Origin: Streptomyces sp. B21-105
Lineage (GTDB): Bacteria > Actinomycetota > Actinomycetes > Streptomycetales > Streptomycetaceae
Direction: 5' to 3'
Length of the DNA stretch: 64,000 bases
Assembly: GCF_036898465.1 (NCBI RefSeq)
Contig: NZ_JARUMJ010000001.1
Span: forward strand, 7,502,001 to 7,566,000
The translations under genes were made by a program, and so were the position numbers. The notes beneath the pieces were generated by a model that was not told the DNA's origin, made no database searches, and was given only the letters and a program-made list of their open reading frames with translations. This document shows positions 52,498 through 62,435 of the stretch, in pieces (within the stretch, counting starts at the first letter, position 1; each line of letters opens with the position of its first letter).

Positions 52498-54075
52498 TCA
52501 GTCCGCCTGCCACCGCAACGGGTTGGGCAGCTCGGCCCACTGGTCGCCGGGCGTCCCCGGCGACAGCCGCATCAGCGTCAGCGCCTTCGCGGGCAGCGGT
52601 TCCTCGCACAGCGCCACGAGGTCGGGGGTGCGCGGCAGATCCCGCACCGCGCTCTCCAGGGCCGCGCCCAGCGCCCGGCCGCTCCCGGCCGTCCCCGCCA
52701 GCGCACCCGCCACCAGCGAGCCGAACAGCTTGCGCCGCAGCACCGTCACGTCGCCCGTGACGATCCGTGCGGGCAGGCCGTCGGGCAGCGGGACGCCGTG
52801 CCGGGCCAGCCGCGCCGGACTGACCCGGATGTCGGCCAGGTCGCGGTAGACCAGGCGCAGCGGCTCGCCCGACGGCGACAGCACGACCAGCAGGTTCTGG
52901 CCGTGCGCCTCCAACGCCACGCCCAGCTCCAGCATGCGCAGGCCCACAGTGAGCCCGAGCCGTGCCAGCTGGACCAACCAGGCGCTGTCGCGGGGCAGTT
53001 CGGTGCCGGCCAGGGCGGCCACCGGGACGACGTGCTCGCCCGGCCCCCCGTACTCCCGAGGCGACTCGCGCAGCACGGCCGCCAGGTCCGGCGAACGGGC
53101 GGTCACGGCGCCCAGCGTCCGGGTCATGTGCAACAGGCCGTGCGCGTACGGCGTCAGGGTCTCCGCGAACGCCGACAGGGCCGCGGAGGCGGCCACCGAG
53201 CCGATGGAGATGTCCCGCACCGAGGACGTCAGCCGGGTGCTCAACGCGGTCTTGACGTGCAGGCCGTCGTCGAGGGCGAGCGTGCGCAGAGACATCAGCG
53301 GATGCGCCGGGAGCCCCCCCGGACCGCTTGCGCCGAGCACCCGCGCCGCGACCCCCTGCGGGCCGCCCCGGCCGAGGACATGCGCCGCCTGCCACGGATG
53401 CACCGGGATCAACAGCCGCACGCCGTCCCGCAGATGCTCCGGCCACCCGCCCGACACCAGGCAGTCGGCGGCGGGCGCAGGCAGCAGCCCCAGCCGCACC
53501 GACGGCCGGTGCTCGGGCCCGTACGCCAGCTGCTCGGCCACCGAGAAGCCGGGCCGCGCACGGCAGTTGGGGTGGTACGGATGCCCGTCGACGACGCGCT
53601 GCTCCCACTCCCAGTCCTGCGCCGGCCACTCCTTCGGGTCCGTCGGCAAGCTGTCGTCGGGGTCCTGGCCGGCCCGGGACAGCGCCAACGAGGCGACGCT
53701 GTGGCCGAGTTCGGCGGCGAAGCCGGCACCGTGCGGAACGGCCAGCTCCGCCAGCAGCCGGGCGGGGTCGTCGTACGCCGTGCCGTGCAGACGCACCTCC
53801 GTCACCCCGGGGGCCGTCGTGTACGGGTCCGCGGGCGGGCCGAGCAGACGGCGGCCGTCCCGCAGGCGCAGCGACAACCCCTCCCGGCCTCGCGGACCGC
53901 ACCCCGCACGGCCCGCGACGAAGGACAGCGGCTCGTGGGCGAGGGCCCGCCACAGCCGGGTCAGCACGGCCGCCCGGGCACCGGGCAGCGCGGCCGCGAA
54001 CCGCGGGCCGAGAGCGGGACGTGCGACGGCCAGTTCTTCGGCCAGATCGGCCTCGACGCTGGGGGGACGGTGCAC
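52498..54075 (-). CDS. IucA/IucC-family NIS siderophore synthetase (first of divergent pair)
   Basis: A 525-aa NRPS-independent siderophore synthetase, which joins a carboxylic acid to an amine or alcohol through an acyl-adenylate. Family motifs in order: GHPYHPNCRARPGFS (ATP site), LLIPVHPWQAAHVLG, VKTALSTRLTSSVRDIS, and the C-terminal VALEAHGQNLLVVL with RDLADIRV. The GTG at 54075 is set by AGGAG seven bases upstream. It diverges from a second synthetase 105 bp away. No iron-box matching TTAGGTTAGGCT was found between them. Confidence 0.92.
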   Translation of the reverse strand: MHRPPSVEADLAEELAVARPALGPRFAAALPGARAAVLTRLWRALAHEPLSFVAGRAGCGPRGREGLSLRLRDGRRLLGPPADPYTTAPGVTEVRLHGTAYDDPARLLAELAVPHGAGFAAELGHSVASLALSRAGQDPDDSLPTDPKEWPAQDWEWEQRVVDGHPYHPNCRARPGFSVAEQLAYGPEHRPSVRLGLLPAPAADCLVSGGWPEHLRDGVRLLIPVHPWQAAHVLGRGGPQGVAARVLGASGPGGLPAHPLMSLRTLALDDGLHVKTALSTRLTSSVRDISIGSVAASAALSAFAETLTPYAHGLLHMTRTLGAVTARSPDLAAVLRESPREYGGPGEHVVPVAALAGTELPRDSAWLVQLARLGLTVGLRMLELGVALEAHGQNLLVVLSPSGEPLRLVYRDLADIRVSPARLARHGVPLPDGLPARIVTGDVTVLRRKLFGSLVAGALAGTAGSGRALGAALESAVRDLPRTPDLVALCEEPLPAKALTLMRLSPGTPGDQWAELPNPLRWQAD

Positions 54076-54180
54076 GGGGGAGCTCCTGAGGGTACGGGTA
54101 CACGGCGTCACGGACGGCTCGTGACGACAGCGATACTTGATCGTCTCCGCCCAGCAGAACCGTAGGGAACCAGGGAACCA

Positions 54181-55749
54181 GTGGATCGCGTGGACCTCAT
54201 CCCCCCGCCCCCCGAGCCGGCGCAGCCGCCGACCGCCGACGTCGCCGAGCGGGCCGACGCGTACGCCGCCGCGCCGCTGCTGAACTGTCTGCTGCGGGAG
54301 CTCGCCGAGCCGCTGCCCCGCACGCCGGGCGGCGACGGCACGCCGGGCGGCGACGGCAGGACGGTCCACCGGCTGCCCGGCGGCCTGCTGCTGCGCGTGC
54401 GCGGCGACCGCCGGCCCGCCGAACCCGAGGTGCACGAGGCCGGGACCTGGCGCCCGCTGGACCACCCCGGGCTCGTCGCCCTGACTGCCGAGGCGCTGCG
54501 CCGGCGCACCGGACGCGACAACCCCGACCTGCCCGCCGAGATGATCGACAGCAGGGACGCGGTGGCGGCGCTGCTCACCGCACGCGCGCGTGCCGCCCCG
54601 CCGGCCGACCCCTACCTGCGCTCCGAACAGTCCCTGATCACCGGCCACCCCCACCACCCCGCCCCCAAGGCGCGCGGCGGCGGTCCCGCGGCAGGCTGGC
54701 TGCCGTACGCCCCCGAGGCGCACGCCCGCTTCCCGCTCGTCCTGCTGGGGCTGCGCGAGGACGCCGTCGTCGAGGAGGGCGACACCGGCCCGCTGGACGC
54801 CCTCGGCGAGGCCCCGCCCGGGTACCGGTTGCTGCCCGCACACCCCTGGCAGCTCGGCCTCGCGGCCCGGGAACTCGCGCCGGCCTTCGCCGACGGCCGC
54901 CTGGTCCGGCTGGGCGCCACCGGCTTCGACGTCTGGCCGACGGCCGCCGTGCGCACCGTGTACGCACCCGAGCGCGACCTGTGCCTGAAGTTCAGCCTCG
55001 ACGTGCGCATCACCAACGACATCCGCCGGCTGTGGCGTCACGACCTGCTGAGACTGCGCCGCACCGACACCGCGGCGGCCCGGGCCTTCGCGGCCATGGA
55101 CGGCCCGGCGGCCTGGCTGAGCGACCGCGGCTACCGCACCGCCGCCTTCGCCTTCGAGGCGCTCGCCGTCCTGGTCCGCGACGGACTGACCGCCCCGGTG
55201 CTGCCCGGCGCGACCCCGCTGCTCGCCGCGGGCCTCGTGGAGGGCTTCGACGGCAGTCCGCCGGCCACGGCGACGGACCCGGCGAGATGGTGGGAGGCGT
55301 ACCTGACGGTCGTCGTCCCGCCCGCGCTGGAGGCGTTCGCTCGCCACGGCGTCGTCCTCGAGGCGCATCTGCAGAACACGCTCGTCGCCGTCGACGCCGA
55401 CGGCATTCCGGTGCAGGCCCTGTTCCGCGACGCCGAGGGCGTGAGACTCCTGCCGGACGTGGAGCGGGCGGCCGGCTGGGAGCGGCTGGTGTACTGCCTG
55501 GTGGTGAACCATCTGTGCGAGGTCGCCGCGGCCCTCGTCGCCCACCACCCCGACTACGACCCGTGGCCCGCGGCACACCGCGCCCTCGCCCGCCCCGACC
55601 TCCCCGAGACGGCGGCCCTGCTCACCGCCCCCACCCTGCCGGGCAAGACGAACCTGCTGCTGCGCTGGACCGGCGCGGACGGCGCGGACGCCCGCTATCT
55701 GCCGCTGCCCAACCCGCTCGCCACCGCCGCCGACGCCCGCCGCACATGA
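54181..55749 (+). CDS. IucA/IucC-family NIS siderophore synthetase (second of divergent pair)
   Basis: A 522-aa synthetase paralogous to the one encoded divergently. Motifs are ITGHPHHPAPKARGGG, RLLPAHPWQLGL, LKFSLDVRITNDIRR and VVLEAHLQNTLVAVD with ALFRDAEGV. A TPGGDG repeat in the N-terminal part is likely a slippage product. The two proteins are only distantly alike, so they probably act on different steps or partners. The usual hydroxylase, decarboxylase, exporter and receptor genes are absent nearby. The GTG at 54181 is preceded by AGGGAACCAGGGAACC, a duplicated ribosome-site-like stretch. Confidence 0.92.
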   Translation: MDRVDLIPPPPEPAQPPTADVAERADAYAAAPLLNCLLRELAEPLPRTPGGDGTPGGDGRTVHRLPGGLLLRVRGDRRPAEPEVHEAGTWRPLDHPGLVALTAEALRRRTGRDNPDLPAEMIDSRDAVAALLTARARAAPPADPYLRSEQSLITGHPHHPAPKARGGGPAAGWLPYAPEAHARFPLVLLGLREDAVVEEGDTGPLDALGEAPPGYRLLPAHPWQLGLAARELAPAFADGRLVRLGATGFDVWPTAAVRTVYAPERDLCLKFSLDVRITNDIRRLWRHDLLRLRRTDTAAARAFAAMDGPAAWLSDRGYRTAAFAFEALAVLVRDGLTAPVLPGATPLLAAGLVEGFDGSPPATATDPARWWEAYLTVVVPPALEAFARHGVVLEAHLQNTLVAVDADGIPVQALFRDAEGVRLLPDVERAAGWERLVYCLVVNHLCEVAAALVAHHPDYDPWPAAHRALARPDLPETAALLTAPTLPGKTNLLLRWTGADGADARYLPLPNPLATAADARRT

Positions 55750-55889
55750 TCCGATCACGCCGACCGGTGAGCCGTGCCACATGACCGCCGTGGCCACATG
55801 ACCGCCATGGCCGCATGACCGCCGGGCGCCCGGGGCCGCCGGGCGCCACGTGAACCCCCGGGCGGCGGCCCCACCGGCAGCGGAGACGT

Positions 55890-56945
55890 CTACCGGGTAC
55901 GGCCGTACCCGGCCCAGAGCGGGCCGATGACGGCCTTGCGCCGCTCGGTGCTCGCGCTCGCGTACAGGGCGGCCGCGGTCAGCGCACCGCCCGCCGCGCA
56001 CCAGGCGACGCGCGCGTGCCGGGAGAGCCAGACCTGGGGGGCACGTCCGTGTGCCTCGGAGTCGAAGATGCCGTGGGCGCCGAAATCGTGGCCGCCCTCG
56101 GCGTCCAGGGGCTGCCACAGGTTGTTCGGACGGTTGTCCGGGACGCTCCGGTCGGTCTGCTGGGAGTCGAACGCGGTTCGGGCCAGGTAGCGGTCCAGCA
56201 GACCGGCGGCGACCTTGTTGGCCAGGACGGTGGCGACGGTGGAGCTCCCCACGTAGTACTGCTTGCGTCGCGGGTGGTCGGCCGCGTACACGACGGACCG
56301 CGCCGCGATCTCGGGCTGGTAGACGGGCGGCACCGGGCGCGGATGCCTCGGCAGCCGGGACAGGACCCACGAGAACTGGGGTGTGTTCACACCGGGCATC
56401 TGGACGACCGTGATCCGGACGTCGCTCTTGCGGTGCAGCAGCTCGGTGCGCACGGAGGAGGTGAATCCGTTCACGGCGTGCTTGGCGCCGCAGTACGGCG
56501 ACTGCAGGGGGATGGAGCGATCACCCAGGGCGGAGCCGACCTGCACGATCGTGCCGGCGTCGCGGGGCAGCATCCGCGCCAGCGCCGCCCGCGTCCCGTG
56601 CACGTAGCCGAGGTAGGTCACCTCGGTCACCCGCCGGAACTCCTGCGGCGAGATGTCGGTGAACGGGGCGAAGACCGAGGCGAAGGCGACGTTGACCCAC
56701 ACGTCGATCGGTCCGAACTCCTCCTCGACGGCGTCGGCGGCGGCCTCGACCCGGGTGTGGTCGGCGACGTCGGTGGGCACCACCAGCGCCTTGCCGCCGG
56801 CCTCCTCCACCTCACGTCCGGTGGCTTCCAGCCCGGTGACGCCCCGGGCCAGCAGTCCGATGCGCGCGCCACGGCGGGCGAAGGCACGGGCACAGGCACG
56901 GCCGATGCCTCCGCTCGCTCCGGTGATGACGACGGTCTGAGCCAC
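55890..56945 (-). CDS. Short-chain dehydrogenase/reductase with C-terminal membrane segment
   Basis: A 351-aa SDR. The NAD(P) motif is VVITGASGGIGRACARAF, the middle has PIDVWVNVAF in place of the usual NNAG, and the catalytic Tyr-Lys is in SPYCGAKHAVNGF. Beyond the usual 250 residues is a tail with a weak hydrophobic helix near 305-325 and a basic end. The GTG at 56945 is chosen because GGGAG lies 7 bases upstream. Substrate is unknown. The region 55750-55889 contains only short CATGACCGCC repeats. Confidence 0.88.
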   Translation of the reverse strand: MAQTVVITGASGGIGRACARAFARRGARIGLLARGVTGLEATGREVEEAGGKALVVPTDVADHTRVEAAADAVEEEFGPIDVWVNVAFASVFAPFTDISPQEFRRVTEVTYLGYVHGTRAALARMLPRDAGTIVQVGSALGDRSIPLQSPYCGAKHAVNGFTSSVRTELLHRKSDVRITVVQMPGVNTPQFSWVLSRLPRHPRPVPPVYQPEIAARSVVYAADHPRRKQYYVGSSTVATVLANKVAAGLLDRYLARTAFDSQQTDRSVPDNRPNNLWQPLDAEGGHDFGAHGIFDSEAHGRAPQVWLSRHARVAWCAAGGALTAAALYASASTERRKAVIGPLWAGYGRTR

Positions 56946-57007
56946 GGGAACGCTCCCTTCCATGAGTGTCGCAGTCAGTGAATGTCGCAGGAGGTGACGG
57001 CCGGTGT

Positions 57008-58780
57008 TCAGGGCCCGGACCAGGGCCGGGCCAGGCGGACCGAGCACTCCAGCATCAGCGCGTGCACGAAAGCCTGGGGGAGGTTCCCGCGCATCTGCCG
57101 CTGAGGGACGTCGTACTCCTCCGAGTAGAGCCCGGCAGGGCCGCAGGCCGCGCGATTGCGTTCGAACCAGCGGTGTGCGGCTACTTCCCGCCCCTGTTGG
57201 TGTTCCGCGAGCGCCATCACGAAGCCGCACAGCAGAAAGGCCCCCTCGGCCGCCTCGAGCGGCCGCTCGTCATGGCGGAAACGGTAGGCGAAATGATCGT
57301 CGGTCAGCTCCTCGGTGTAGGCGCGCAGCGTGGCGACGGTCCGGGGATCGTCGGCGGGCAGGGCCCCGCGCAGCGGCGGCAGCAGCAGCGCGCCGTCCAG
57401 GCCCGGGTCCTCGGGGGAGCGCTGCCAGCGGCCCGTGGGATGCAGGCAGTGAGCGGCGGTGTCGGCGACCAGCCGGTCGGCGAGCGCCACCCATTCGCCG
57501 GCGTGCGGCGACGCCGTGTCGGCGCCGGCGACGGCCCGCAGCCCGGCGGCACACGTCAGCCGGCTGTGGGCCCAGTTGCGGGGCGAGAGTTCCCAGACAC
57601 CGGCGTCAGGCTGGTGGTGGCGCCGGGCGATCGCGTCGGCGGCGATTTCCGCGGCCCGCCATGCGTCCGCGTCCAGCCGGTCCCGGCGGGCCGCCGAGGC
57701 CAGCAGCAGCAGCGCCTCGCCGAACCCGTCGAGCTGGAACTGTTCGTTGACCTGGTTGCCCACCCGGTCGAAGCCTCCCGGGTAGCCCGGCAGATCCAGC
57801 GAGCGCTGGTCGGGGATCCGGCCGCCGTCGACCGTGTAGGCGGGCGCGAGGCGCGGGCCGTCCTCGTGCAGACGCGCCGCGACGAAACGCACCGCACCGT
57901 CCAGCACCGTCTCCCCGCCCGCAGCGGCCGCTGCCTGGCCCGCGTAGCTCAGGTCCCGGATCCACGCGTAGCGGTAGTCGTAGTTGCGGCCCTCCTCGGC
58001 CCGCTCGGGAAGGCTGGTCGTCGTGGCCGCGACCATGCCCCCGGTCGAGCCGGTCAGCCCCCGCAGCACGGTGTACGCCTGGCGGGCGTCCCGGCGCGCG
58101 ATGGCATGGTCCAGACCGGGCGCCTCCCCGCGCCACGCAGCCTCGGTCGAGCGCCAGGCGGCCACCGGGTCGGGCGGCCGGCCGCTCAGGGGCCTGTCGC
58201 TGATTTCGAGCACCAGATCGTGATGGTCTTCGGCCTCGACGGTCAGCTCCGTCATCAGCCCCGGCGGGTCGGCGGGACGGGCCGTCGGCCAGCCCGACCA
58301 GCGCAGGCGCAGATCGCCCGCTGTCCCGGTCCAGGTGTGATCGTCGTGGCGGGTCACGTCGCGCAACGGGTGGCGGCCGAACCCGGCGGCCGGCGCCAGC
58401 ACCACGGACACCCGGGCGGCGCCCTCGCGGGCGATGACCCGCCTCAAGATCACCGCGGTGTGCGGATCACCCGGGAAGGCGAGCGCCTCACGGCACTCCA
58501 CGACACCGTCGTCGGTGACCCAGCGGCTGCGCCAGATCAGCGACCCTTCCTCGTAGTGGCCACCCCACACACAGCGGGCCACCGGGGTGACCGTGTACAC
58601 GCCGCTGCCCCCGATGAGCGTCGAGAAGACGGCGTCGGAATGCCACCGGGGCGCGCACATCCATGCGAAGTCACCGTGCGGTCCGACGATGACGCCCCGC
58701 TCGCCGTCGGCCAGCAACGCGTAGTGACGCAGCGGCTCCGGCCCGGGCCCCGCCCCGCACCGGCGCCGACCGACTGGCAT
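57008..58780 (-). CDS. Glycoside hydrolase family 15 protein (glucoamylase/trehalase type)
   Basis: A 590-aa GH15-like enzyme. The N-terminal beta domain (YALLADGERGVIVGPHGDFA, WMCAPRWHSDAVFSTLIGG) precedes the alpha/alpha barrel, where NYDYRYAWIRDLSYAG is the family signature; QFQLDGFGEALLLL and GLYSEEYD contain the general-acid and base region. Actinobacterial relatives include trehalases and glucoamylases, so the sugar is unclear. There is no signal peptide. The ATG at 58780 follows GAGGGA. Confidence 0.88.
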   Translation of the reverse strand: MPVGRRRCGAGPGPEPLRHYALLADGERGVIVGPHGDFAWMCAPRWHSDAVFSTLIGGSGVYTVTPVARCVWGGHYEEGSLIWRSRWVTDDGVVECREALAFPGDPHTAVILRRVIAREGAARVSVVLAPAAGFGRHPLRDVTRHDDHTWTGTAGDLRLRWSGWPTARPADPPGLMTELTVEAEDHHDLVLEISDRPLSGRPPDPVAAWRSTEAAWRGEAPGLDHAIARRDARQAYTVLRGLTGSTGGMVAATTTSLPERAEEGRNYDYRYAWIRDLSYAGQAAAAAGGETVLDGAVRFVAARLHEDGPRLAPAYTVDGGRIPDQRSLDLPGYPGGFDRVGNQVNEQFQLDGFGEALLLLASAARRDRLDADAWRAAEIAADAIARRHHQPDAGVWELSPRNWAHSRLTCAAGLRAVAGADTASPHAGEWVALADRLVADTAAHCLHPTGRWQRSPEDPGLDGALLLPPLRGALPADDPRTVATLRAYTEELTDDHFAYRFRHDERPLEAAEGAFLLCGFVMALAEHQQGREVAAHRWFERNRAACGPAGLYSEEYDVPQRQMRGNLPQAFVHALMLECSVRLARPWSGP

Positions 58781-58915
58781 TTCCCTCACCGGCAACCCTC
58801 CCGTCCGTCCCGTCAGGGCGTACACCGCCGTCCGACACCACCTCAGGAAGAGGAGTCCGCTCCGCTGCCCCGCCCCGGGTGCTTCGCGACTCCGCTAACC
58901 CCTGGACGTGGATGA

Positions 58916-59206
58916 CAAACCCGTATCAGCGAATTGGCCTCGCCCGACAGCGCCGCACGGCGGGAACTCGTCGCACGCGTGGGCGTCGAGCTCGTGCAGC
59001 GCACGGCGATCGAGAGGGAGTACCTGTATCCGGCGGTGATCGAGCACGTGCCCGGAGGGTCGCAGTGGGCGGCGCGGGGACTCGCGGAGCACGCCGGGAT
59101 CGAAGAGATCGTCCGGGCGCTTCAGGGCCCGGCACCGGACCAGGAAGTCTTCGGCCGGCTGGTCCTGGACCTCGTCACCCGCCTTACCGATCACCTGCGT
59201 GAATAA
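58916..59206 (+). pseudogene. Hemerythrin-like HHE protein, both ends missing
   Basis: The text RISELASPDSAARRELVARV, QRTAIEREYLYPAVIEHVPG and HAGIEEIVRALQG matches helices 2-4 of HHE-type hemerythrin-like proteins. An in-frame stop at 58913 cuts off the start codon and the first metal-binding helix, and the frame ends at DHLRE before the usual C-terminal HxxxEE. The only start in frame is TTG at 58934. It is probably a remnant. A small open frame in 59209-59409 follows but is unrecognised. Confidence 0.65.
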
Positions 59207-59454
59207 GTGTGGTCGACCGGATCCGTGACGTCCTCATGGGCCGGTGGCGGGGCGTCCACGAGGACGCCGCGGGGCCGGGACCCCGGCGCGCGGCGGGGAG
59301 CGTGCGGCTGGACGACCGCCTTCCGCACGGTGAACCGTTGCACAGGGCGAGAATCGTCCCGGAGCCGGGTGAGGGGGCGTTACGCGGCAGGGCCAGGGGG
59401 TACTCATGACGGGCGGTGCGCCAGGTGCCGCTCGTTTCCGCTGGGAGGCCCGGC

Positions 59455-61950
59455 ATGGACGCTTCGGTGGACCGGATCGCGCACCCCTGGGGCAGCCGTA
59501 CCCCGTACGGCCGAGGCGAGCCGTGGCCCGAGCGTGTGGACGCGTATCTCATGGCGGGTGTCGAACCCGGCCGGGTACAGCGGTGGGTGCAGGCCGCGTC
59601 GGTCCTGCATTCCGACGGTGACGCGATGGACATCGCGGTCGTGGACGGGCGCATCGCAGGGGTGCGCGGACGGGCCGGCGACCGGGTCAACCGCGGCCGG
59701 CTGGGCCCGAAGGACCTTTTCGGCTGGCAGGCGAACGCGTCGAAGGACCGGCTGACGAGGCCGCTGGTGCGCGAGGGCGGACGCCTGGTGGAGTGCGACT
59801 GGGACGCGGCGATGGAGCGGATCGTCGCCCGCTCGCGGTCACTGCTGGAGGAACGCGGACCGGGCTCGATCGGCTTCTACACCAGCGGGCAGCTCTTCCT
59901 GGAGGAGTACTACACGCTCGCGGTGCTGGCGCGGGCCGGGATCGGCACCAACCACCTGGACGGCAACACGCGCCTGTGCACGTCGACGGCGGGCGAGGCG
60001 TTGAAGGAGTCCTTCGGCTCCGACGGGCAGCCGGGCAGTTACGACGACATCGACCACGCCGACGTGATCGCGCTGTTCGGGCACAACATCGCCGAGACAC
60101 AGCCCGTGCAGTGGATGCGCGTCCTCGACCGTCTGGAGGGCGCCGACCCGCCCCGTCTGATCTGTGTCGACCCACGCCCCACGCAGGTGGCCCGCAGGGC
60201 GGCCGTGCATCTGGCTCCGCGCATCGGAACCAACGTGGCACTGCTCAACGCGCTCCTGCACGAGATCATCCGCACCGACCGCGTCGACCACGACTACGTC
60301 GCGGCCCGCACCGTCGGTTTCGAGGAACTGGCGTCCCGGGTGAAGGAGTGCACCCCCGAGTGGGCGGCCCGCATCTGTGACGTGCCGGCCGCGCGCATCG
60401 GCGAGGCCGCGGAACTGCTCGGCACCGCCGACCGACTGCTGTCGACGGTGCTGCAGGGGGTCTACCAGTCCCACCAGGCCACCGCGGCCGCCGTGCAGGT
60501 CAACAACCTGCACCTGATCCGCGGCATGCTGGGGCTGCCCGGCGCCGGTGTGCTGCAGATGAACGGGCAGCCCACCGCGCAGAACACCCGCGAGTGCGGC
60601 GCCGACGGGGACCTGCCGGGCTTTCGCAACTGGCAGAACGACAGCCACGTCGCCGACCTGGCGAAGGTGTGGAACGTCGAACCGAAGACCATCCCGCACT
60701 ACGCCCCGCCGACCCACGCCATGCAGATGTTCCGCTACGCCGAGCAGGGCTCGATCCGCATGCTGTGGATCAGCGGCACCAACCCCGCGGTGTCCCTCCC
60801 GGAGCTGTCCCGCATCCGCTCCATCCTCGGACAGGACCGCCTCTTCACCGTCGTGCAGGACCTGTTCCTGACCGAGACCGCGCAGCTCGCCGACGTGGTG
60901 CTGCCCGCCGCGACCTGGGGCGAGAAGACCGGCACGTTCACCAACGCCGACCGCACCGTGCACCTGTCCGACAAGGCGGTCGAACCGCCCGGCGAGGCGA
61001 GGCCGGACCTGGTCGTCTTCCTCGACTACGCGGCCCGGATGGACTTCCGCGACAAGGACGGCGGTCCCCTGATCACCTGGCACGACCCGGAATCCGCGTT
61101 CGAGGCGTGGAAACGGTGCAGCGCCGGCCGGCCCTGCGACTACACCGGCCTCACCTACGACAGGCTGCGCGGCGCGAGCGGAATCCAGTGGCCGTGCAAC
61201 GAACAGGCCCCTGACGGCACACCACGCCTCTACACGGACGGCGTCAGCTGGGCGCATCCCGACGTCTGCGAGAGCTACGGCAAGGACCTGGTGACCGGCG
61301 CGACGGACGACGTCGTCGAGTACCGCTCCCTCAACCCGGACGGCAAGGCCGTGATCAAGGCGGCCGGCTGGCTGCCCCCGCACGAGATGCCCGACGAGCG
61401 GCATCCGTTCCAGCTGACCACGGGCCGCACCCTCTACCACTTCCACACCCGCACGAAGACCGCCCGGGCGCCCCAGCTGAACGCGGCGGCCCCCGACGTA
61501 TGGGTGGAGGCGTCCGCCGCCGACGCGGCCGCACTAGGCCTGCACGAAGGCGACCTGGTCGAGGTCGGCACCCCGCGCGGCGCCCTGCGGGGCCGACTGC
61601 GGGTGACCGACATCCGTCCGGGACTGCTGTTCGTCCCCTTCCACTACGGCTACTGGGACACCGAGGCCGGACACGGCCCCGGCGGCGACACGCCCGGCCG
61701 GGCCGCGAACGAGACGACCGTCACCGACTGGGACCCCGCCTCCAAACAGCCGCTGTTCAAGACCGCCGCAGCCGCGCTGCGCCTCGTGGAACGGGGAGAC
61801 GGTAGCCCCGCGCCCGCACCGACCACCACCGCGTCCGCGCCGTCGCGCGCCGACGCCGTACCGCCCACCGAGGGCGGAACGTCCGCGCTCGCGACGCAGA
61901 CGCGCGCGACGCGGGCGGTCGACGCCGGCCGTGAGGAGGCCGCCGAGTGA
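59455..61950 (+). CDS. Molybdopterin oxidoreductase (Nap/Fdh type) lacking the [4Fe-4S] cysteines
   Basis: An 831-aa DMSO-reductase-family protein. The molybdenum ligand is Cys175 in DGNTRLCTSTAGEAL. Other family marks are FYTSGQLFLEEYYTLAVLAR, VQWMRVLDRLEG, HLIRGMLGLPGAGVLQMNGQ, WISGTNPAVSLPEL and the final cofactor domain FQLTTGRTLYHFHTRTKTAR. The expected N-terminal C-x2-C-x3-C-x27-C cluster site is present in outline, but every Cys is replaced: Ser49, His52, Asp56 and Gly84 (QAASVLHSDGDAMDI, NRGRLGPKD). The C-terminal tail is Thr/Ala-rich. The stop overlaps the next start (GTGA). The substrate is unknown. Confidence 0.9.
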   Translation: MDASVDRIAHPWGSRTPYGRGEPWPERVDAYLMAGVEPGRVQRWVQAASVLHSDGDAMDIAVVDGRIAGVRGRAGDRVNRGRLGPKDLFGWQANASKDRLTRPLVREGGRLVECDWDAAMERIVARSRSLLEERGPGSIGFYTSGQLFLEEYYTLAVLARAGIGTNHLDGNTRLCTSTAGEALKESFGSDGQPGSYDDIDHADVIALFGHNIAETQPVQWMRVLDRLEGADPPRLICVDPRPTQVARRAAVHLAPRIGTNVALLNALLHEIIRTDRVDHDYVAARTVGFEELASRVKECTPEWAARICDVPAARIGEAAELLGTADRLLSTVLQGVYQSHQATAAAVQVNNLHLIRGMLGLPGAGVLQMNGQPTAQNTRECGADGDLPGFRNWQNDSHVADLAKVWNVEPKTIPHYAPPTHAMQMFRYAEQGSIRMLWISGTNPAVSLPELSRIRSILGQDRLFTVVQDLFLTETAQLADVVLPAATWGEKTGTFTNADRTVHLSDKAVEPPGEARPDLVVFLDYAARMDFRDKDGGPLITWHDPESAFEAWKRCSAGRPCDYTGLTYDRLRGASGIQWPCNEQAPDGTPRLYTDGVSWAHPDVCESYGKDLVTGATDDVVEYRSLNPDGKAVIKAAGWLPPHEMPDERHPFQLTTGRTLYHFHTRTKTARAPQLNAAAPDVWVEASAADAAALGLHEGDLVEVGTPRGALRGRLRVTDIRPGLLFVPFHYGYWDTEAGHGPGGDTPGRAANETTVTDWDPASKQPLFKTAAAALRLVERGDGSPAPAPTTTASAPSRADAVPPTEGGTSALATQTRATRAVDAGREEAAE

Positions 61951-62435
61951 ACGGCGTCACCCTCACCCTTCGCGCGCTCCACCACGGCGAGCGGCGCCTC
62001 GCCCAGCAGCTGACGACGGTGGCCGAACGCCACCGCACCGACCACGAGATCCACCACGTCGCCACCGACCTCGCCGACTGGTCCCGCGAACACGTCCGGC
62101 GCCTGGCCGACACCGGTCACGCCCACGGCGTCGACCTCGACGCCTCCATCGCGGAGGCCGGTCCCGGGGTCCTCTCGACGCTGCGCGAGAGAGCCGCCGA
62201 AGTTGTCGGCCATCGCCCCGAACCCGGCCTGCTGCTCCTGCGCGACCTGCGCGAGCTCTATCTGGACGCCGCCGAGAACTCCCTCCACTGGGAGATGCTC
62301 GCCCAGGCCGCACAGGCCTCCGGGGACGACGGACTCCTCGCCGTGGCCTCCGCGTGCCACCCGCGGACACTCCGGCAGCTGCGCTGGACCAACACCATGA
62401 TCAAGGTCCTCTCGCCCCAGATCCTCACGAGTTGA
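61947..62435 (+). CDS. Small all-helical protein coupled to the molybdoenzyme
   Basis: A 162-aa protein predicted to be mainly helical, with many His and Glu (RHRTDHEIHHVATDLADWSR, LRELYLDAAENSLHWEMLAQ). It is cotranslated with the molybdopterin oxidoreductase by a GTGA overlap, so the two probably act together. The His/Glu spacing suggests a ferritin- or hemerythrin-like metal site or a four-helix electron-transfer or chaperone subunit, but no known family was identified. There is no signal or membrane segment. Confidence 0.75.
   Translation: MNGVTLTLRALHHGERRLAQQLTTVAERHRTDHEIHHVATDLADWSREHVRRLADTGHAHGVDLDASIAEAGPGVLSTLRERAAEVVGHRPEPGLLLLRDLRELYLDAAENSLHWEMLAQAAQASGDDGLLAVASACHPRTLRQLRWTNTMIKVLSPQILTS

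Follow-up and report, generated by a model that had tools for sequence, protein, structure and literature searches.

We describe a molybdopterin oxidoreductase gene, and the overlapping gene of a small partner protein, in a window of 64,000 nucleotides of the 9.2 Mb genome of Streptomyces sp. B21-105 (contig NZ_JARUMJ010000001.1, positions 7,502,001 to 7,566,000 of the forward strand; the window is the whole stretch of DNA that was analysed). The enzyme is a member of the MopB (dimethyl sulfoxide (DMSO) reductase) superfamily that has none of the four cysteines of the N-terminal [4Fe-4S] cluster (zero-Cys), and comparison with its homologues supports a separate lineage of molybdoenzymes in which a second component is conserved, too. 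The explanation that we favour, and to which we give about an even chance, is a cluster-free oxyanion reductase that would be reduced directly at the molybdenum, would contain a ferritin-like subunit and would have lost its cluster stepwise. The gene pair and its signals are:

59443..59448, + strand: GGGAGG, likely ribosome-binding site of the enzyme gene as read from the sequence, 6 bases before the ATG
59455..61950, + strand: zero-Cys molybdopterin oxidoreductase, catalytic subunit, 831 amino acids, ATG at 59455
59599..59622, + strand: codons of Ser49, His52 and Asp56, the former C-x2-C-x3-C cluster motif
59704..59715, + strand: codons of Gly84 (former fourth Cys), Pro85, Lys86 (kept) and Asp87
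59977..59982, + strand: codons of Cys175 (molybdenum ligand) and Thr176
60568..60591, + strand: codons of Gln372 to Arg379, the ends of which align opposite Gln346 and Arg354 of Desulfovibrio desulfuricans NapA (DdNapA); conserved among homologues
61933..61939, + strand: GAGGAGG, likely ribosome-binding site of the partner gene as read from the sequence, within the enzyme gene
61947..62435, + strand: partner of 162 amino acids, predicted ferritin-like four-helix bundle, with a GTG start that overlaps the enzyme stop

In a Pfam scan the enzyme matched PF00384 (193 bits, cut-off 24) and PF01568 (92.3 bits, cut-off 26.8), and no Molybdop_Fe4S4 domain was found in it. Fold comparison indicated that the overall MopB fold is conserved, with DdNapA as the closest fold. 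When aligned with DdNapA (2jim_A, 352 bits), Ser49, His52, Asp56 and Gly84 stand opposite its four cluster cysteines. Direct reading of these residues and of Cys175 agrees with a preliminary description of this DNA, in which the four cysteines were reported absent and the molybdenum ligand present; of the gapless alignment claimed there for all four positions, the first three hold, but ahead of the fourth our enzyme has one extra residue. Two paralogues within the same genome (L002 and L003) have all four cysteines.

The replacements are shared by the close homologues. A homologue search placed 7930 of 8000 candidates above threshold, and among the best 120 of these 7930 (82-92% identity) Ser, His and Asp occupy the first three cluster positions in 120/120, as do Cys175 and Lys86 their own, while the fourth position is Gly in 117 and Glu in 3; almost all of those that bear an organism name come from Streptomyces. 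Sampling across the Actinomycetota, with enzyme matches in 28/396 genomes (E <= 1e-140, the Streptomyces sp. B21-105 genome counted in), gave the site pattern (S/A/T)-HD-(G/D/E). For a second genus, inferred to be Mycobacterium, matches were found in 44/198 genomes (E <= 1e-120), and the 27 loci that were new among these 44 are all zero-Cys (AHDD 19, SHDD 7, THDG 1) with Lys86 and Asp87 throughout. A copy on a Rhodococcus koreensis plasmid reads S-H-D-G. The outlier among the zero-Cys proteins is a divergent enzyme (locus L022 / L051) with Ser49, Gly52, Glu56, Asp84 and Arg86-Glu87, the partner of which has a long insertion. Over 378 aligned rows no mixed cluster state occurs (193 CCCG, 166 His/Asp, 1 SGED, 15 CCCC, 3 unreadable). 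Asp87 and Lys86 are each present in 165/165 zero-Cys rows, and position 87 is Gly in 193/193 three-Cys rows and in 15 four-Cys rows. These 165 rows were chosen by His52 and Asp56, and what is independent in them is Asp87, Lys86, position 49 and the pocket; His/Asp counts made without such picking are those of the 120 best homologues, the phylum sample, the sister search described below, the 27 second-genus loci and the 378-row alignment. The enzyme of Streptomyces sp. B21-105 is itself counted in the zero-Cys sets, some of the aligned rows are near-duplicates (a single gene appears as L018 and as L099 and is counted twice, among the 193 rows as well as among the 74 partner loci given below), and L075, L076 and P0248, which lack the cluster region, were left out of the state counts.

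A sister lineage has the same pocket as the zero-Cys enzyme and, in most loci, the same partner and gene order, but has retained C-x2-C-x3-C; its fourth site is Gly in 193/193 rows, and Gly also follows the Lys86 equivalent. Gly84, which the preliminary description counted as part of the change, is thus shared with this three-Cys lineage, and the Ser/His/Asp part is what sets the zero-Cys enzymes apart. A search with a 64% identical relative as query yielded 119 readable proteins among the 120 matches listed, all of them C-C-C-G, and the 80 loci kept from named genomes comprise 69 C-C-C-G and 11 zero-Cys. Among plasmids, 25 records had a match, 8 were fetched and the site was read in 7 (5 CCCG, 1 SHDG, 1 CCCC); the C-C-C-G copies are those of Deinococcus taeanensis, D. 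aetherius, Hymenobacter, Halomonas and Staphylococcus saprophyticus, and the CCCC copy is 36% identical to our enzyme. Identity to the latter is 59-66% for the aligned three-Cys rows, 56-60% for the Deinococcus, Hymenobacter and Halomonas copies and 43% for the Staphylococcus copy (L210 4437-7412), beside which no partner was found and a different 181-residue protein lies upstream. Members of the sister lineage are annotated as 'nitrate reductase', 'anaerobic selenocysteine-containing dehydrogenase' or 'ferredoxin-nitrate reductase', and no paper characterising the lineage was found in the literature searched. Arsenite oxidase AioA, which carries a [3Fe-4S] cluster, resembles it in having three cysteines and a fourth position that is not Cys; AioA is 24% identical to the zero-Cys enzyme in the fold alignment, the latter having no cluster motif while keeping its Cys molybdenum ligand.

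A decayed gene was rejected as an explanation on account of the Ser/His/Asp found in 120/120 of those best homologues and the low ratio of nonsynonymous to synonymous substitution rates (dN/dS). This ratio is 0.18-0.27 for the enzyme against 7 relatives, indicating purifying selection, and 0.24-0.67 for the partner (L011 left out, its partner alignment being 19 codons). Cysteine-bearing homologues, which the preliminary description had linked to an isolated decayed gene, do exist, but they make up a group of their own, and the zero-Cys gene is no isolated or decayed one. In a FastTree phylogeny with four-Cys outgroups the zero-Cys set is one clade (support 0.93). An IQ-TREE phylogeny of 63 sequences, rooted on Staphylococcus L210 and made with the cluster columns removed, recovers this clade with 98.1 in the Shimodaira-Hasegawa-like approximate likelihood ratio test and an ultrafast bootstrap (UFBoot) of 81, nested among three-Cys lineages, and in the unrooted tree without outgroup the zero-Cys and three-Cys states are split with UFBoot 98. 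The cluster was probably dismantled stepwise, from four cysteines to three to none, since in the three-Cys sister the fourth Cys has already given way to Gly; because a regain of three homologous cysteines is implausible, the comparison supports a single loss leading to the zero-Cys state, after the change of the fourth Cys to Gly. This last step probably also changed the Gly after Lys86 to Asp87, leaving the pocket unaltered.

To judge from its residues, this pocket is nitrate-reductase-like and not formate-dehydrogenase-like. Cys175, the ligand of the putative molybdenum/tungsten-bis(pyranopterin guanine dinucleotide) cofactor, is present in 373/373 counted rows, and Cys175, Thr176, Gln334, Gln372 and Arg379 are conserved in both the zero-Cys and the three-Cys lineages. 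Thr176 occurs in 164/165 zero-Cys and 193/193 three-Cys rows, the four-Cys rows having Met in 15/15, and position 334 is Met in 13/15 four-Cys rows as compared to Gln334 in the two lineages. Gln372 and Arg379 match, in the alignment, Gln346 and Arg354 (DdNapA numbering), pocket residues of NapA. Formate dehydrogenase was rejected, as Thr176 and Asn370 face both of its catalytic residues, the His after Cys/Sec and the catalytic Arg, in the alignment with FdhF 7qv7; the score against TIGR01591 (formate dehydrogenase alpha), 459.7 of 666.25 bits, is below the cut-off. Scores also stay below the cut-offs of the curated nitrate reductases (NasC 388/1100, NasA 360/1000, NapA 304/904 and 302.5/930.55 bits), by a wide margin for NapA and NasC. 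From NapA of D. desulfuricans and from NasC/NarB the enzyme differs by having no cluster cysteines and by its ferritin-like neighbour. The DMSO, trimethylamine N-oxide (TMAO) and biotin sulfoxide reductases (DorA, TorA, BisC) are bis(molybdopterin guanine dinucleotide) (bis-MGD) enzymes, as ours is predicted to be, and TorA and BisC lack the N-terminal cluster, as does DorA; these have a Ser molybdenum ligand and belong to another superfamily branch, their cluster loss being independent of that of the zero-Cys lineage. Compared with these cluster-free S/N-oxide reductase families (bisC_fam, TorA), the enzyme has Cys175 and not Ser, and it scores 115/1018 bits against TIGR00509. MSMEG_6816 of M. 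smegmatis, described in passages of PMC7816997, PMC3662644 and PMC4222082 as a 720-amino-acid molybdopterin oxidoreductase of the GlnR regulon that is dispensable for nitrate assimilation, was not used as evidence for nitrogen regulation because its membership could not be shown; by its length and NarB-like domain it is closer to the four-Cys L003 type.

The partner gene lies downstream of the enzyme gene in 40/43 zero-Cys and 67/74 three-Cys loci with room for it; the four-Cys loci are a poor control, 13/15 being without downstream room, with the partner in 0/2 of the others. A clade with common substitutions and the same neighbour, as the preliminary description had envisaged, therefore exists. 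Enzyme stop and partner start overlap by 4 bp (GTGA), which together with the GAGGAGG upstream makes translational coupling probable; the pair had been called fused in translation, which here is no more than this start/stop overlap, but a genuine protein fusion is encoded on the Halomonas plasmid (L208 4989-7817), followed by an HPP gene, FdhD and formate dehydrogenase. Since the partner is present in both lineages and fused to the enzyme in Halomonas, it is probably an enzyme subunit and not a cluster substitute. Its predicted structure is an antiparallel four-helix bundle, ferritin-like. No Pfam match was found for the 162 residues, PF01814 (hemerythrin) included. DUF2383 was rejected as its family, having matched 5/37 members (best 8.2e-5) but not the Streptomyces sp. 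B21-105 protein, and a profile search for a solved relative gave weak matches, the best being 8qae_A (sc-apCC-6-SLLA; 4.1e-4 over 55 positions). YciE/YciF and bacterioferritin are about 10% identical to the partner, in which the full set of di-iron ligands (E, ExxH, E, ExxH) is not evident: Glu15, His49 and Asp100 are mostly kept, Glu15 and His49 covarying (Leu/Gln in 11 three-Cys partners), and Thr141/Gln144 stand, by our placement, where the last ferritin ExxH would fall. Much of the richness in His noted earlier for this protein is not conserved (His33, His36, His37 and His138 vary). On a Gloeothece plasmid (L209 4780-7556) the enzyme is matched in two frames and the partner is split in two; an annotated HPP gene comes next, and this copy is probably broken.

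Where a locus has 900 or more bases downstream, the gene of an HPP membrane protein (nitrite-transporter family) follows on the same strand in 18/73 three-Cys and 5/45 other loci, 23/118 in total, the 45 including two without cluster region (L075 and L076); the 5 neighbours tested match PF04982. HPP genes also lie downstream in the Halomonas and Gloeothece plasmid loci. On the Deinococcus taeanensis plasmid (L206, downstream of 7902) a weaker, HPP-like match (E 9.5e-13) comes directly after the partner, in a place annotated with no more than a short hypothetical protein; none was found in the other five plasmid loci. In a mutant cyanobacterium, an Arabidopsis HPP protein was shown to transport nitrite (Maeda et al. 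2014, as referred to in PMC4137279). By association only, the HPP neighbours together with the pocket point to nitrate, nitrite or a like oxyanion. Besides the partner and HPP, no neighbour cluster occurs in more than 9/80 loci, and the 9-locus cluster (c3), which takes up the position of the partner on the other strand, was set aside as it looks like a reverse-strand frame over the partner. The hemerythrin-like remnant upstream, pointed out earlier together with the candidate partner, was rejected as a partner itself and is not conserved: a hemerythrin-like gene is found in 5/29 loci (that of Streptomyces sp. B21-105 counted), at varying places and on varying strands. Here it is the C-terminal part of a hemerythrin-domain protein at 58934-59206 (+), remnant-like with its first part missing (PF01814, 27.6 bits, cut-off 25.3, profile positions 33-117 of 127). 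Upstream of the zero-Cys enzyme gene, here at 55893-58825 (-) and likewise on the Rhodococcus koreensis plasmid (L211 137-2961), a glycoside hydrolase family 15 gene adjoins that of a short-chain dehydrogenase. An IucA/IucC-FhuF type siderophore synthetase is encoded at 54181-55746 (+); a long reverse-strand frame (52498-56370) overlaps it, and the part tested, 52498-54100, gave no Pfam match.

In the cluster-free oxyanion reductase that we favour, the enzyme would catalyse bis-MGD-dependent oxygen-atom transfer on a small oxyanion, nitrate or similar, and, without an internal relay, its molybdenum would be reduced directly by a small molecule or a protein acting by way of the substrate funnel, as in the cluster-free DMSO, TMAO and biotin sulfoxide reductases. 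The ferritin-like partner would date back to the three-Cys ancestor and serve as a subunit for structure, maturation or docking, and His52, Asp56 and Asp87 with Lys86 would fill and brace the emptied cavity, although the His and the two Asp may form a metal site or a relay instead of a brace. Several observations weigh against this explanation. The residues of L022 deviate at positions 52, 56, 84, 86 and 87, and its Gly52 means that His52 cannot be strictly essential; of the two active-site Met of Nap/Nas neither is kept (Thr176 and Gln334 stand in place of DdNapA Met141 and Met308). HPP was not found in the Streptomyces sp. B21-105 genome, and downstream HPP genes in the zero-Cys group are restricted to one bacterial family, one Micromonospora having HPP upstream. 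No recurrent electron-transfer gene was noticed beside the enzyme, no search having been aimed at such genes. As to its history, the deeper nodes of the L210-rooted tree are weak (UFBoot 47, 65, 64), and in an IQ-TREE phylogeny of 65 sequences a far four-Cys outgroup groups with the zero-Cys L070 (split support 91, further nodes 56-57), leaving the zero-Cys set paraphyletic and the three-Cys set a clade (94); zero-Cys monophyly with this outgroup is not rejected by the approximately unbiased test (p = 0.314).

The partner could instead be a metal-binding four-helix subunit carrying the electrons that the lost cluster once carried, as its place in the operon, the Halomonas fusion, the predicted ferritin-like fold and the common Glu15, His49 and Asp100, the first two changing together, would allow. 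The same partner beside three-Cys enzymes speaks against this electron donor, which the preliminary description had proposed, as does Thr141/Gln144 opposite the last-helix ExxH, by which mapping a complete di-iron set looks absent, and we hold it to be rather unlikely. A similarly low probability is given to another metal (mononuclear iron, zinc or manganese) bound by His52, Asp56 and Asp87 in the old cluster pocket as a new relay or structural site: these residues do accompany the loss of the cysteines, Asp87 in 165/165 rows, but they are only three candidate ligands, position 84 varies between Gly, Asp and Glu, and in L022 Gly52 is found while Glu56, Arg86 and Glu87 preserve the charges, as would rather be expected of a salt-bridge network. 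Slightly less doubtful, though still improbable, is a broader proposal of an undescribed actinobacterial nitrate-reductase-type class, derived stepwise from an ancestor with the cluster. Here the iron-sulfur relay would have been swapped in one event for a conserved His/Asp/Asp site, which would either hold a different metal or pass protons or electrons on to the pterin via the retained Lys86, and the enzyme would work in complex with the ferritin-like subunit. A reaction without external electrons, either a hydration or an internally balanced oxygen transfer like that of pyrogallol transhydroxylase, would make the cluster dispensable and agree with a pocket unaltered despite its loss and with the lack of a recurring reductase or ferredoxin gene noticed nearby (none having been searched for specifically); yet acetylene hydratase, the nearest non-redox relative known to us, keeps its cluster and the HPP neighbours point to an oxyanion, so that we find this, too, unlikely. 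A pseudoenzyme or scaffold without molybdenum has precedent in the cofactor losses known for some MopB proteins (PMC10100899), but with the molybdenum ligand and pocket residues (nearly) invariant and a low dN/dS it seems highly improbable.

Absence of the N-terminal cluster in the Ser-ligand branch, for example in DorA (PMC10100899), is already known, and a figure legend of that superfamily survey marks one family as having lost the cluster; neither 'Streptomyces' nor 'Actinobacteri-' is mentioned anywhere in its text. A second survey (PMC7331816) states that sequences were included only with family-characteristic motifs, the cluster-binding motif being one example, and may for this reason have passed the zero-Cys lineage over. 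No description of the lineage was found among the titles and abstracts of the literature searched, most subscription journals lying outside it. What is new, as read from the genomes compared, is a Cys-ligand lineage on the nitrate reductase side with a probably stepwise cluster loss. The Lys between cluster and proximal pterin of NapA is thought to pass electrons to the molybdenum, and its replacement abolishes nitrate reductase activity according to a passage in PMC12769810. In the zero-Cys enzyme nature has removed the cluster, kept this Lys and left the pocket untouched, and the Cys-bearing sister enzyme with the same partner is a ready control, so that the pair allows a direct test of the catalytic role of the cluster and of reduction without it. 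The lineage as such is a natural experiment, that of a molybdenum enzyme without its iron-sulfur wire, with near-fixed replacement residues across an actinobacterial branch and the same catalytic pocket.

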